64,000 nucleotides of DNA from Stenotrophomonas maltophilia (GTDB taxonomy: Bacteria; Pseudomonadota; Gammaproteobacteria; Xanthomonadales; Xanthomonadaceae): positions 1,997,001 to 2,061,000 of the forward strand of contig NZ_CP154630.1 of assembly GCF_039555535.1 (NCBI RefSeq), written 5' to 3'. A program made the position numbers and the translations under genes. The notes beneath the pieces are model-generated. The model worked only from the letters and a program-made list of their open reading frames with translations. It made no database searches and was not told the origin of the DNA. Shown here piece by piece: positions 44,182-46,673 of this stretch; position 1 is the first letter of the stretch, and each line of letters begins with the position of its first letter.

Positions 44182-44236
44182 GCGCAGGGCGTATGAAGGG
44201 TATGCGAATCAGCCTACTACAGACGTTGGGTGAATA

Positions 44237-44253
44237 TGGGCACGATACGCCCA
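44237..44253. promoter_or_regulatory. Candidate LysR operator upstream of the MFS gene
   Basis: Interrupted dyad TGGGC-ACGATAC-GCCCA, 21 bases before the MFS start and 55 bases from the LysR start. GC-rich five-base arms can arise by chance, so the assignment is tentative. Confidence 0.35.
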
Positions 44254-44274
44254 CTTCCTCCACCGGACTTCCCC

Positions 44275-45465
44275 ATGTCTACCCCCTCGCTGTCCGTCGC
44301 CGCACCCGCGACCGCGCCTTCCACCCCATTGGTGCTGGCGATGGCGGCCGGTGCCGGCTTCTCTGTGGCCTCGCTCTACTACAGCCAACCGATGCTGGGC
44401 CTGATCGCCCAGGATCTCGGCGCGGGGGAGCGCGCGGCCGGCCTGGTGCCGACCCTGACCCAGCTGGGGTATGCGCTGGGCATCCTGCTGCTGGCACCGT
44501 TGGGTGACCGTTTCGACCGCCGTACCCTGATCCTGTTGAAATCCGCGCTGCTGGCGCTGGCACTCGGCGCGGCAGCGATGGCCGGGCACCTGCCGGGCCT
44601 GCTGATGGCCAGCCTGCTGGTGGGGCTGATGGCCACGCTGGCGCAGGACATCGTGCCGGCCGCTGCGGTGCTGGCGCCGGATGCGCAGCGCGGGCAGATC
44701 GTCGGCCGGGTGATGACCGGCCTGTTGCTTGGCATCCTGCTGTCACGGGTGGTCAGTGGCGTGGTGGCCGAGGCGTGGGGCTGGCGTACCCAGTTCGTGC
44801 TGGCTGCGTTGTCGGTGGCGGCGATGGGCGCGGTGATGGCGCGTGCGCTGCCGCGTTTTGCACCGACCAGCACGCTGCGCTATCCGGCATTGTTGGGTTC
44901 GTTGCTGGCGTTGTGGCGCGAGCAGCCGCAGCTGCGCCGTGCGGTGGCCAGCCAGTCGTTGCTGGCGGTGGGCTTCAGCGCGTTCTGGTCGACCCTGGCG
45001 CTGATGCTGCATGCACGGTTGGGGCTGGGTAGTGCCGCAGCGGGTGCATTCGGCATCGCCGGTGCGGCCGGTGCGCTGGCCGCACCGTTCGCCGGCCGCT
45101 TCGCCGATCGATTGGGGTGCCACGCGGTGGCGCGGCTGGCGATCGCGGTGGCGCTGCTGGGTTTCGGCCTGCTGCTGGCCGAGACCTGGCTGCCGGCCGT
45201 CGCGCTGCTGCCGCTGCTGGTGGTGAGCGCGCTGCTGTTCGACTTCGGGTTCCAGTCGGCGCTGGTGGCGCACCAGACGCTGGTCTACGGCCTGGTGCCG
45301 CCGGCACGCAGTCGCCTCAATGCGCTGCTGTTCACTGGCATGTTCATCGGTATGGCGGCAGGTGGCGCGCTGGGCAGCCTGGCGCTGGCGCAGTGGGGAT
45401 GGCACGGCGTGGCCTGGCTGGCGGTGGTGTGTGCGGGCGGCAGCCTGCTGCTGCGTTTGAAGTAA
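44275..45465 (+). CDS. MFS transporter, YgaY/sugar-efflux-like
   Basis: A 396-residue major facilitator with 12 predicted helices. The first helix region reads AAGAGFSVASLYYSQPMLGL, then LGYALGILLLAPLGDRFDRR gives motif A (GDRFDRR), and ATLAQDIVPAAAVLAPDAQR with GLLLGILLSRVVSGVVAEAW follows. The C-terminal half repeats the pattern (GRFADRLGCHAV). Proteins of this type export small metabolites or drugs. LYYSQPM is characteristic of the YgaY-like group. I start at MSTPSLS rather than an upstream ATG that adds nonconserved residues. A LysR regulator is divergent. Confidence 0.88.
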   Translation: MSTPSLSVAAPATAPSTPLVLAMAAGAGFSVASLYYSQPMLGLIAQDLGAGERAAGLVPTLTQLGYALGILLLAPLGDRFDRRTLILLKSALLALALGAAAMAGHLPGLLMASLLVGLMATLAQDIVPAAAVLAPDAQRGQIVGRVMTGLLLGILLSRVVSGVVAEAWGWRTQFVLAALSVAAMGAVMARALPRFAPTSTLRYPALLGSLLALWREQPQLRRAVASQSLLAVGFSAFWSTLALMLHARLGLGSAAAGAFGIAGAAGALAAPFAGRFADRLGCHAVARLAIAVALLGFGLLLAETWLPAVALLPLLVVSALLFDFGFQSALVAHQTLVYGLVPPARSRLNALLFTGMFIGMAAGGALGSLALAQWGWHGVAWLAVVCAGGSLLLRLK

Positions 45466-45477
45466 GGGGGGGCGTTC

Positions 45478-45503
45478 GGCAGGGCTTGCAGCCCTGCACC
45501 TGC
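45478..45503 (+). repeat. Left 26-base terminal inverted repeat
   Basis: Contains the hairpin GCAGGGCTTGCAGCCCTGC and ends ACCTGC; exact reverse complement of 45987-46012. Confidence 0.92.
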
Positions 45504-45508
45504 TGGAG

Positions 45509-45550
45509 GCAACAGCAACAGCAACAGCAACAGCAACGGCACCAGCAACG
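45509..45550 (+). repeat. Hexanucleotide tandem repeat (GCAACA)n
   Basis: Four perfect GCAACA units followed by GCAACG, GCACCA and GCAACG. A shorter complementary tract (CTTGCTGTTGTTGTTGAG) lies at the other side of the region near 45942-45959. Confidence 0.85.
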
Positions 45551-45567
45551 GCGGGGTTCCTGTAGGT

Positions 45568-45671
45568 AGGCGGGATGGGTCCGGTTGCGGGGGACGCCGT
45601 GAATCCGTCCATGGAGGCTCGGTCGCGCCATCCATGGCGCTCACGCCCCCGCAACCGGACCCACCCCGCCT
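45568..45671 (-). repeat. 102-base structured palindromic element, copy A
   Basis: Read on the minus strand, the outermost 25 bases of each side (45569-45670) pair completely, with one G-T pair. Inside lie a GCGCCAT-GG-ATGGCGC hairpin and a conserved core containing CCATGGACGG and TTCACGGCGTCCC. It aligns without gaps to copy B. Confidence 0.85.
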
Positions 45672-45707
45672 TCGACAGGTTCCTGCGGTCTGTTGGAACG
45701 GCTCTTG

Positions 45708-45748
45708 GGGGTCAGATCCGTTTTCCGGAGGAAAACGGATCTGACCCC
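45708..45748. repeat. 41-base palindrome of the GGGGTCAGATCCG family
   Basis: Nineteen-base perfect arms (GGGGTCAGATCCGTTTTCC and complement) around GGA; same arms as the copy at 36593-36635 with a different loop. It lies close to the middle of the intergenic region. Confidence 0.9.
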
Positions 45749-45773
45749 TGATTGATTTCGATATGCGACAGAA

Positions 45774-45798
45774 GTGTCGACCAAGGTCGACACCTACC
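45774..45798 (-). repeat. SMAG/REP palindrome
   Basis: GTGTCGACC-AA-GGTCGACAC followed by CTACC, same as the copy at 18436-18460. Confidence 0.85.
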
Positions 45799-45821
45799 GA
45801 CAGCCGCAGGAATCTGTCAGA

Positions 45822-45923
45822 GGTGGGGCGGTGTCGGAGTGCGGGGTGTCCGCGGCATGGATGCCGCGGCCAAGCCCCCATGGACGGGTTCACGGCGTCC
45901 CCGCAGTCCGACACCGCCCCGCC
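45822..45923 (+). repeat. 102-base structured palindromic element, copy B
   Basis: Same length and layout as copy A but on the plus strand. The outer stem has 24 of 25 pairs, the inner hairpin is CCGCGGCAT-GG-ATGCCGCGG, and the core again has CCATGGACGG and TTCACGGCGTCCC. Eight outer stem pairs and one inner pair differ from copy A by compensating double changes. Confidence 0.85.
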
Positions 45924-45960
45924 ATCCCACGGAATCCATGCTCTTGCTGTTGTTGTTGAG

Positions 45961-45985
45961 GTTGCCGGCCAGCGGCCGGCACTAC
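45961..45985 (-). repeat. SMAG/REP palindrome
   Basis: GTTGCCGGCCAGCGGCCGGC then ACTAC, immediately inside the right terminal repeat. Confidence 0.82.
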
Positions 45986-45986
45986 C

Positions 45987-46012
45987 GCAGGTGCAGGGCT
46001 GCAAGCCCTGCC
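45987..46012 (-). repeat. Right 26-base terminal inverted repeat
   Basis: Exact reverse complement of 45478-45503; starts eight bases from the response-regulator stop. Confidence 0.92.
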
Positions 46013-46019
46013 GCCCCCC

Positions 46020-46673
46020 CTAATCGTGCCCGCTGTCGTCCAGGCTGATGATGCCGCGCCGCAGTGCCTGGGTGACCGCATGCGTGCGGTCACCGACGCC
46101 GAGCTTGTCCATCAGGCTCTTCATGTGCGCCTTTACGGTCTGCTCGGAAATCTGCATGCGCTCGCCGATGCGCTTGTTCGACAGCCCGCCGGCGACATGA
46201 CGCAGTACCTCGGTCTCGCGGGGCGACAAGCGGTCTTCCACCACGTGCGCGGCGATGCTGGCGGCCACCGCCGGGGGAATCGGTGCGCGCCGGCCGCCGG
46301 CGACCATGCGAATGGTGTCGACCAGCTCGTGGCGCAGCATGTCCTTAAGCAGGTAGGCGCTGGCGCCGGCCTGCAGCGCCCGCACCGCGCGCACATCGCC
46401 GCGGTAGGTGGTCAGCACGATGATGCGCGCACGCGGGTCCATCGCGCGGATCCGCACGATTGCTTCGACGCCATCCAGGCGTGGCATCTGCAGGTCCATC
46501 AGCACCACGTCCGGCTGCAGCTGCTGGTAGCGTGCGATGGCTTCCTCGCCATCGGCGGCCTCGCCGAGCAGGCGCAGGTCGGAATGGGCGCCCAGCAGCG
46601 CCGCCAGGCCGTCACGCAGCAACGGGTGGTCGTCGACCACCAGCACGCCGATCGGGGCAGGGTTCTCAGTCAT
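46020..46673 (-). CDS. NarL/LuxR-family response regulator
   Basis: A 217-residue regulator. Receiver-domain acidic residues Asp14/Asp15 and phospho-acceptor Asp60 (PDVVLMDLQMPRLDG) are present, with the Lys of YLLKDML. The C-terminal LuxR helix-turn-helix is LSPRETEVLRHVAGGLSNKR followed by IGERMQISEQTVKAHMKSLMDKL. It overlaps the end of the propeller sensor kinase gene by eight bases, so the two form a coupled two-component system. The target genes are unknown. Confidence 0.95.
   Translation of the reverse strand: MTENPAPIGVLVVDDHPLLRDGLAALLGAHSDLRLLGEAADGEEAIARYQQLQPDVVLMDLQMPRLDGVEAIVRIRAMDPRARIIVLTTYRGDVRAVRALQAGASAYLLKDMLRHELVDTIRMVAGGRRAPIPPAVAASIAAHVVEDRLSPRETEVLRHVAGGLSNKRIGERMQISEQTVKAHMKSLMDKLGVGDRTHAVTQALRRGIISLDDSGHD

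Follow-up and report, generated by a model that had tools for sequence, protein, structure and literature searches.

A dispersed palindrome family of Stenotrophomonas maltophilia related to the TwoAYGGAY motif, with a possible link to CsrA/RsmA

What are two palindromic copies of one element, facing each other between two genes of Stenotrophomonas maltophilia and differing by changes that keep their stems paired? The copies lie in a 64,000-nt stretch of contig NZ_CP154630.1, referred to here as the window. A first-pass annotation of its sequence proposed that structure, not just sequence, is under selection and offered three options: a structured RNA, a 3' end element or a non-autonomous mobile palindrome.

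Locus, fold and covariation

Copies A and B, both 102 nt long and placed on opposite strands by the first-pass annotation, align without gaps and are identical at 73 of 102 positions. All eight outer pairs reported as compensated (8/95, 11/92, 12/91, 13/90, 17/86, 19/84, 20/83 and 21/82) are indeed double changes that keep Watson-Crick pairing, as is the inner pair 34/43. Two further compensated double changes, at pairs 26/51 and 56/67, are absent from that account. Pair 18/85 has changed on both sides, from T-A to G-G, and is broken in copy B, and copy A lacks pairing at 29/48 and 30/47. The two copies fold more stably than shuffled sequence (z -10.4 and -7.3), with none of 200 shuffles doing as well.

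Each copy of ~102 nt is composed of an outer stem of 25-26 bp followed by hairpins 1 and 2 at a three-way junction, with hairpin 2 carrying a 5-nt bulge. The stretches described earlier as unpaired or loop positions with a conserved sequence mostly form hairpin tops: CATGGATG comprises the hairpin 1 loop and the pair that closes it, and CCATGGACGG caps hairpin 2.

Table 1. Features of the intergenic region and its flanking genes (window coordinates)
Feature	Position	Strand	Remarks
Copy A, 102 nt	45569..45670	-	Outer 25-bp stem and three-way junction with two hairpins; R1 108.8 bits
Copy B, 102 nt	45822..45923	+	Head-to-head with copy A, outer stem differs; R1 107.4 bits
Copy A hairpin 1 hexaloop	45630..45635	-	AUGGAU (ANGGAN)
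Copy A hairpin 2 hexaloop	45607..45612	-	AUGGAC (ANGGAN)
Copy B hairpin 1 hexaloop	45857..45862	+	AUGGAU (ANGGAN)
Copy B hairpin 2 hexaloop	45880..45885	+	AUGGAC (ANGGAN)
Spacer of 151 nt separating the 5' ends of copies A and B	45671..45821		Varies among loci; contains other palindromes
Long imperfect inverted repeat, left arm	45527..45688		Contains copy A; 71% complementary to right arm
Long imperfect inverted repeat, right arm	45804..45965		Contains copy B
Outermost left arm	45470..45508		Carries palindrome CAGGGCTTGCAGCCCTG
Outermost right arm	45982..46020		87% complementary to 45470-45508
MFS transporter gene	44230..45465	+	Convergent left neighbour; PF07690, E 1.2e-36
Response regulator gene with LuxR-type HTH	46020..46673	-	Convergent right neighbour; PF00072, PF00196

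The A/B pair is flanked by CAACAG-type hexamer repeats (45509-45550, with a mirror at 45939-45960), and CAACAG-like arrays of variable length stand beside many other pairs too. Within the spacer, a perfect 19-bp palindrome, GGGGTCAGATCCGTTTTCC (45708-45748), recurs in the spacers of several other pairs, and a second palindrome (45774-45797) is of the GTAG type. The minus strand at 45963-45985 is an exact copy of the SMAG consensus given in PMC2613905; SMAG and another GTAG-type palindrome share one intergenic region with copies A and B. A promoter scan of this one locus found no sigma-70-like promoter in 45440-46060, and a terminator scan of the window placed terminator-like sites at the spacer palindrome alone and none at copies A and B.

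Covariation was assessed on sets of increasing breadth. A first DNA search of the own genome returned at least 44 matches (best 40 of 125 candidates scored). From the 58 copies then collected, two cut by an inserted palindrome were omitted; the other 56 were aligned by MAFFT, with the structure then written by hand (A1), and supplied covariance model R1. Among the 53 distinct copies of A1, 97.6% of paired cells hold (shuffled mean 78.0), and double changes occur at 31 of 41 pairs, compared with 22.6 in shuffled and 7-13 in slid controls.

A3 comprises 97 copies, collected as matches with E<=1e-7 from 56 chosen loci of Stenotrophomonas, Xanthomonas, other Xanthomonadaceae and other gammaproteobacterial records, those outside the Xanthomonadaceae being Marinobacter, Pseudidiomarina, Haliea, Shewanella, Cellvibrio, Saccharospirillum, Ectothiorhodospiraceae and less defined MAGs. 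The 39 copies of A4 come from 33 loci spread over 25 family groups other than its own. A further set, A2, contained antisense matches and another element class and was excluded from the counts; identical rows were counted once. Fitting to the model biases both A3 and A4 towards its structure; with this bias, 97.0% of A3 cells are paired, the covariation score is 0.80 (0.12-0.15 slid) and 1177 cells are doubly changed (359 shuffled, 251-315 slid), and in A4 97.9% of paired cells hold (37-46% slid), with a score of 0.97 (0.13-0.15 slid) and 573 doubly changed cells (157 shuffled, 113-136 slid). Paired cells and covariation score discriminate in these two sets, whereas the number of doubly changed pairs hardly does, at 34 of 39 in A3 (31.4 shuffled, 21-27 slid) and 36 of 39 in A4 (30.8 shuffled, 25-27 slid). 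The further pair types of A4 are matched by 7 of 500 shuffles. The outer stem is almost free in sequence, with pairing, the two loops and the junction conserved. Stem changes covary in the own-genome, 97-copy and 39-copy sets alike, which supports the proposal that structure is under selection.

Departures from Watson-Crick pairing are asymmetric, with G.U mispairs exceeding A.C mispairs by 39 to 4 in own copies (12 of the 39 at one pair), 168 to 21 in A3 and 31 to 5 in A4. Selection on double-stranded DNA alone would be expected to leave the two departures equally common; the excess thus indicates that the fold is kept on the GGA-loop strand, as RNA or single-stranded DNA, the asymmetry (G.T over A.C) being expected for single-stranded DNA also. 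ViennaRNA places the three-way junction at a median of 6-7.6 kcal/mol above the MFE, which contains hairpin 1 in 46/56 own and 36/39 A4 copies and hairpin 2 in 11/56 and 12/39. Because the energy model alone rarely yields hairpin 2, the structure rests on covariation.

Within the hairpin 2 bulge, A1 columns 69 and 72 change together without exception, as T..A in 44 of 56 copies and C..G in 12 of 56. C..G occurs with a T-A stem pair only and T..A with both stem pairs; the two columns are too close for pairing in cis and perhaps form a tertiary contact.

Copies, pairing and distribution

R1 identifies at least 137 matches at E<=0.001 in the own genome (best 150 candidates scored), reduced to 133 copies by the removal of four antisense overlaps. 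Copy numbers and prevalence here and below are lower bounds, with the best 10 to 150 candidates scored per genome. The at least 133 copies fall into 93 clusters, 53 of them single (29 minus, 24 plus) and 40 with two copies. All 40 two-copy clusters are arranged minus-then-plus with 5' ends facing, 127-263 nt apart. Outer stems of mates are less alike than chance, with an identity of 0.538 compared with 0.602 in shuffled pairings (a fraction of 0.001 of 2000 shuffles is equally low), and only one pair reaches an identity of 0.8 or more, compared with 6.4 expected. Such unlike stems would be expected if mates avoid pairing with each other, whether as RNA or within a long DNA palindrome.

According to a codon-bias gene caller, used in place of annotation, the clusters lie at 34 convergent, 9 divergent and 48 codirectional junctions, with two lacking a resolved right flank, of which one (L112) falls within a called gene. 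Repeats of this kind may be the source of many short 'hypothetical proteins'. The excess of convergent over divergent junctions (p 1.7e-4, sign-test p-values being optimistic where copies share ancestry) supports the suggested 3' end element in part. The outer-side distance to the called gene has a median of 89 nt (quartiles 72-122). Single copies between codirectional genes exhibit no sense bias, with 15 sense and 14 antisense, so that they resemble halves of old pairs, not positioned 3'-UTR parts. In the 70 nt upstream of the at least 133 own copies, the consensus CGGGAA.CTGTCGAA adjoins the element, and inspection of this consensus by eye reveals no TATAAT-like block.

Twenty-two loci reached via the LuxR orthologue reveal how variable the region is, ranging from a full pair through a decayed or interrupted copy to other states. 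These include one hybrid produced by loop-out (L079), one locus duplicated in tandem (L080), two loci without a copy (L068, L078) and four in which the region is reduced to 18-79 bp (L081, L084, L086, L087). The MFS neighbour is absent from the examined stretch in 7 of the 22. Of the two hallmarks of a MITE, terminal inverted repeats and a target-site duplication, inverted-repeat ends are present at the window locus; for the duplication, no clean empty site was seen among these loci, L081 having a 45-bp palindrome instead. Dispersal and variable presence at one locus would agree with the mobile palindrome suggested earlier, but no mobiliser was found.

Within the genus, the element is detected in at least 31 of 41 genomes, including the own one; G029 is negative although CsrA is present. 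Model R2 (best 10 candidates scored per class genome) matches in at least 68 of 369 Gammaproteobacteria, covering 52 family groups. A draw of 299 genomes from the phylum, whose share of other classes is listed only in part, contains at least 19 positives, all Gammaproteobacteria. CsrA (PF02599) is matched in 313 of the 369 class genomes and in 63 of the 68 element-positive ones, with five positives lacking a CsrA match, including G292 (98% complete). Among good-quality class genomes, CsrA occurs in 56/57 element-positive genomes and 224/257 others (Fisher p 0.01). With all 369 genomes included, p rises to 0.06, and the association is confounded by phylogeny and genome size.

The head-to-head arrangement extends beyond the own genome. 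Among non-own A3 neighbours less than 400 nt apart, 24 are minus-plus, 8 plus-minus and 2 in the same direction; A4 contributes one minus-plus and one minus-minus. Seven of the 8 plus-minus neighbours stem from Xanthomonas records, where pairs form alternating arrays. Seven head-to-head Xanthomonas pairs each combine two stem types; L188, with near-equal stems, is an exception to this pattern. Blastn found no match among 72,556 plasmid and 50,697 phage records.

Relation to TwoAYGGAY, Ysr224 and other known systems

Compared with Rfam, the window copies reach no gathering score and do not match TwoAYGGAY even at E<=5. The reading of a family without an Rfam relative, to which these two copies had led, is overturned by TwoAYGGAY and Ysr224 matches at distant loci. 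In the own genome, RF01731 (TwoAYGGAY) yields at least 22 matches at E<=1 (best 150 of 302 candidates scored), every one of which coincides with an R1 copy in the same orientation; among the matches listed, one exceeds the threshold (44 vs 43 bits). Related copies score above threshold at L308 and L312, from 20 distant loci, and at L309 and L290, from a second set; the same two sets contain L313 and L314, respectively, which match Ysr224 above threshold. Rfam clan CL00106 includes both TwoAYGGAY and CsrB. With at least 22 sister copies matching TwoAYGGAY, a member of the same clan as CsrB, the repeats are best seen as a divergent, multiplied branch of this motif that the Rfam model hardly detects here.

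The kind of motif is already known. A 2010 table (PMC2864571) has a TwoAYGGAY row that classes it as 'probably' RNA and not as cis-regulatory, with gamma-Proteobacteria, Clostridiales and human gut as its sources. The shared architecture is a long outer stem bearing two hairpins, whose loops read (A)YGGAY in TwoAYGGAY. Own copies have AYGGAY in loop 1 in 55/56 and in loop 2 in 26/56, the others with G or A at Y, and differ from TwoAYGGAY in a short hairpin 2 with its 5-nt bulge and in the free second loop position. Set against the Rfam model and that table row, the own repeats also stand apart by more than 100 copies, head-to-head order and unlike stems. Our search of titles and abstract openings, in literature mostly outside subscription papers, found no description of multiplication beyond 100 copies, strict head-to-head pairs with unlike stems, the free loop N or a TwoAYGGAY-type spread in Stenotrophomonas and Xanthomonas. 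Four copies in G593 and G514 (L308, L309, L310 and L312; genomes of ~6-6.7 Mb) form a variant in which both loops are ANGGA, hairpin 2 is longer and the outer stem is followed at once by a T-rich tail.

Ysr224 (RF02770, Yersinia sRNA 224) has the element core, read in reverse complement, as its consensus. Its model scores 82-92 bits on the plus strand of L313:283-389 and L314:286-392, antisense to the R2 copies, and gives the window copies 33.5 and 32.7 bits, again antisense, compared with a threshold of 70. With that model built on the opposite strand, an RNA read from the antisense side has already been reported; by this match of models, the Ysr224 sRNA and the repeat family appear to be one locus type viewed from opposite strands.

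With CsrB, RsmB, RsmX, RsmY and RsmZ the element shares GGA in hairpin loops and two-site spacing (PMC7652899, PMC4005645); those RNAs derive from one or a few dedicated sRNA genes, whereas the element is dispersed, reaching at least 133 copies in a single genome, with two sites in each copy. In Xanthomonas campestris, RsmU (sRX061) is an RNA that binds RsmA and comes from an mRNA 3' UTR (PMC7694677, PMC3937308). Compared by description, it differs as a locus reported to be limited to Xanthomonas, with three or four GGA motifs (PMC7694677); in vitro, changing GGA to AAU did not abolish its binding of RsmA (PMC7694677, PMC3937308).

REP, REPIN and BIME sequences, including Stenotrophomonas SMAG, are similarly extragenic, palindromic, high in copy number and arranged as inverted doublets. 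REPs are 20-40 bp long with a GTAG/GTGG foot and RAYT linkage (PMC3686654, PMC2613905, PMC3733652), whereas the element forms a 102-nt three-way junction. Its features, where compared, fit neither REP nor simple terminator: membership of REP/REPIN/BIME fails on the GTAG/GTGG foot and RAYT (Y1) linkage, and the window copies do not present the GC-rich hairpin plus T-run of an intrinsic terminator.

A candidate RsmA ligand and the alternatives

The hairpin 1 loop reads AUGGAU in 55/56 own copies and AAGGAU in one; the hairpin 2 loop reads A-N-GGA-H in 56/56, with N being T in 26, G in 21, A in 7 and C in 2. Two or more ANGGA motifs occur in the core of 130/133 own copies and one in the other 3. 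In A3, ANGGA is present in loop 1 of 95/97 and loop 2 of 93/97 copies, with at least two in 93/97. In A4, both loops have it in 39/39, as a hexaloop always in loop 2 and in 35 copies in loop 1; two ANGGA occur in 4.7% of shuffled A4 sequences. The own genome encodes one CsrA/RsmA gene, whose product retains L4, V42 and R44, which we take to be key CsrA residues.

Published work offers a fit for such loops. In PMC4005645, a high-affinity CsrA/RsmE site is described as an ANGGAX hexaloop that immediately caps a stem. According to PMC7652899, CsrA can bridge two sites at a distance of 10-63 nt, with an optimum above 18, and its SELEX consensus is RUACARGGAUGU. The two ANGGA motifs of A4 lie 23 nt apart in 31/39 copies and 22-27 nt apart in all, within the two-site bridging range given in PMC7652899; the exact 11-nt SELEX core UACARGGAUGU appears in 7/39 A4, 3/97 A3 and 1/56 own copies.

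The structured-RNA option is strongly supported, and we assign a probability of roughly 0.7 to the reading that the element is a TwoAYGGAY-related RNA module that may bind CsrA/RsmA via its two loops and titrate it on mRNA tails. When transcribed, the sense strand would present two ANGGA loops on a three-way junction to a CsrA/RsmA dimer in a two-site mode. Since head-to-head pairs lie mostly near gene 3' ends, read-through from either side would include one sense copy, competent for binding, along with one antisense copy devoid of ANGGA loops; with mates unlike in their outer stems, each copy could fold alone, not with its mate. Most likely, the element would serve to retain RsmA on mRNA tails or on fragments derived from 3' ends, or to titrate it there, to an extent that would scale with read-through and tail stability, and an RsmA-bound sense copy would perhaps protect the tail. 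The main doubts concern the weak predicted hairpin 2, the unbiased single copies and the antisense Ysr224 model.

Part of this evidence can be read in other ways. As non-autonomous mobile DNA of a REP- or MITE-like kind, the element would be recognised by a transposase as single-stranded DNA hairpins, its structure being kept for mobility and not for an RNA function. The dispersal of at least 133 copies, their presence, loss and duplication at one locus among relatives, the alternating Xanthomonas arrays and the G.T preference shared by single-stranded DNA agree with this, as does a CYAC, which reads GTRG on the opposite strand, at the 3' foot in 57/133 own copies. That CYAC, however, stems from a flank of this genus; GTRG occupies the 5' foot of only 12/133 own copies, and outside the genus GTRG/CYAC at the feet is rare (5 and 6 of 87 in A3, 8 and 8 of 38 in A4). 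The element is absent from all four Y1-transposase loci (~3.3 kb each) in the own genome, three of which carry several GTAG repeats instead. With stem and flanks nearly free in sequence across genera, blastn blank for the plasmid and phage records, and loops that fit a known RNA-binding motif with N free, we regard mobility as an unlikely reason for the fold.

Slightly less probable still is a bidirectional terminator or mRNA 3'-end stabiliser, in which a strong hairpin alone matters and the loops bind nothing particular. It would suit the preference for gene 3' ends, the stable stems and the T-rich tails of the four TwoAYGGAY-variant copies in G593 and G514, but leaves invariant A-GGA loops with a free N and a conserved junction unexplained; the hairpin stems covary while the loops stay constant, and the terminator-like sites of the window are confined to the spacer palindrome. 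Gene conversion or palindrome correction between arms could also create apparent covariation without selection on structure, given that long palindromes are correctable arm to arm and that copies of one genome share stem subtypes. We consider it very improbable: double changes occur in the short inner hairpins too, with loops and bulge retained, the process is symmetric, yet G.U exceeds A.C by 8 to 1, and the structure is retained over 25 families with unrelated stems.

The reading of an RsmA-binding module bears on regulation in this family of bacteria. Xanthomonas is reported to possess RsmA/CsrA and to lack CsrB/RsmB homologues (PMC3937308, PMC7286519); a covariation-supported family whose two loops are of the CsrA type, present in Stenotrophomonas and Xanthomonas and across at least 52 family groups of the class, offers that question a concrete candidate. 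TwoAYGGAY, listed in 2010 with no function, would become here a high-copy dispersed element selected on a single strand. More tentatively, and with odds that we place below even, chromosomes of Gammaproteobacteria may carry self-dispersing RNA decoys of CsrA/RsmA, from a few to more than 100 twin-loop modules, placed at gene ends as head-to-head pairs with mismatched partners. If so, global RsmA activity would be set by read-through and decay of many mRNA tails, not by one GacA-driven sponge; the modules could be the missing Xanthomonadaceae counterpart of CsrB/RsmZ, and TwoAYGGAY RNA would acquire a function.

Two other kinds of sequence accompany the family. A second palindrome, GGGCGCTT..GCGAAGCA-TGCTTCGC..AAGCGCCC, is inserted at or beside the hairpin 2 loop of five copies (L009 from ~1788, L024 from ~1790, L070, L071 and L073), at almost identical positions, as though it targeted that loop. 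A related class (L038:1234-1341 minus, L060:1824-1931 plus, L063:1675-1780 plus, L048 and L058) possesses a similar hairpin 1 with the CATGGATG loop and a different second hairpin; its L038 and L060 members contain GTCAGACAGGATGTCTGAC, a GGA loop of their own, and lie near a main-class copy.
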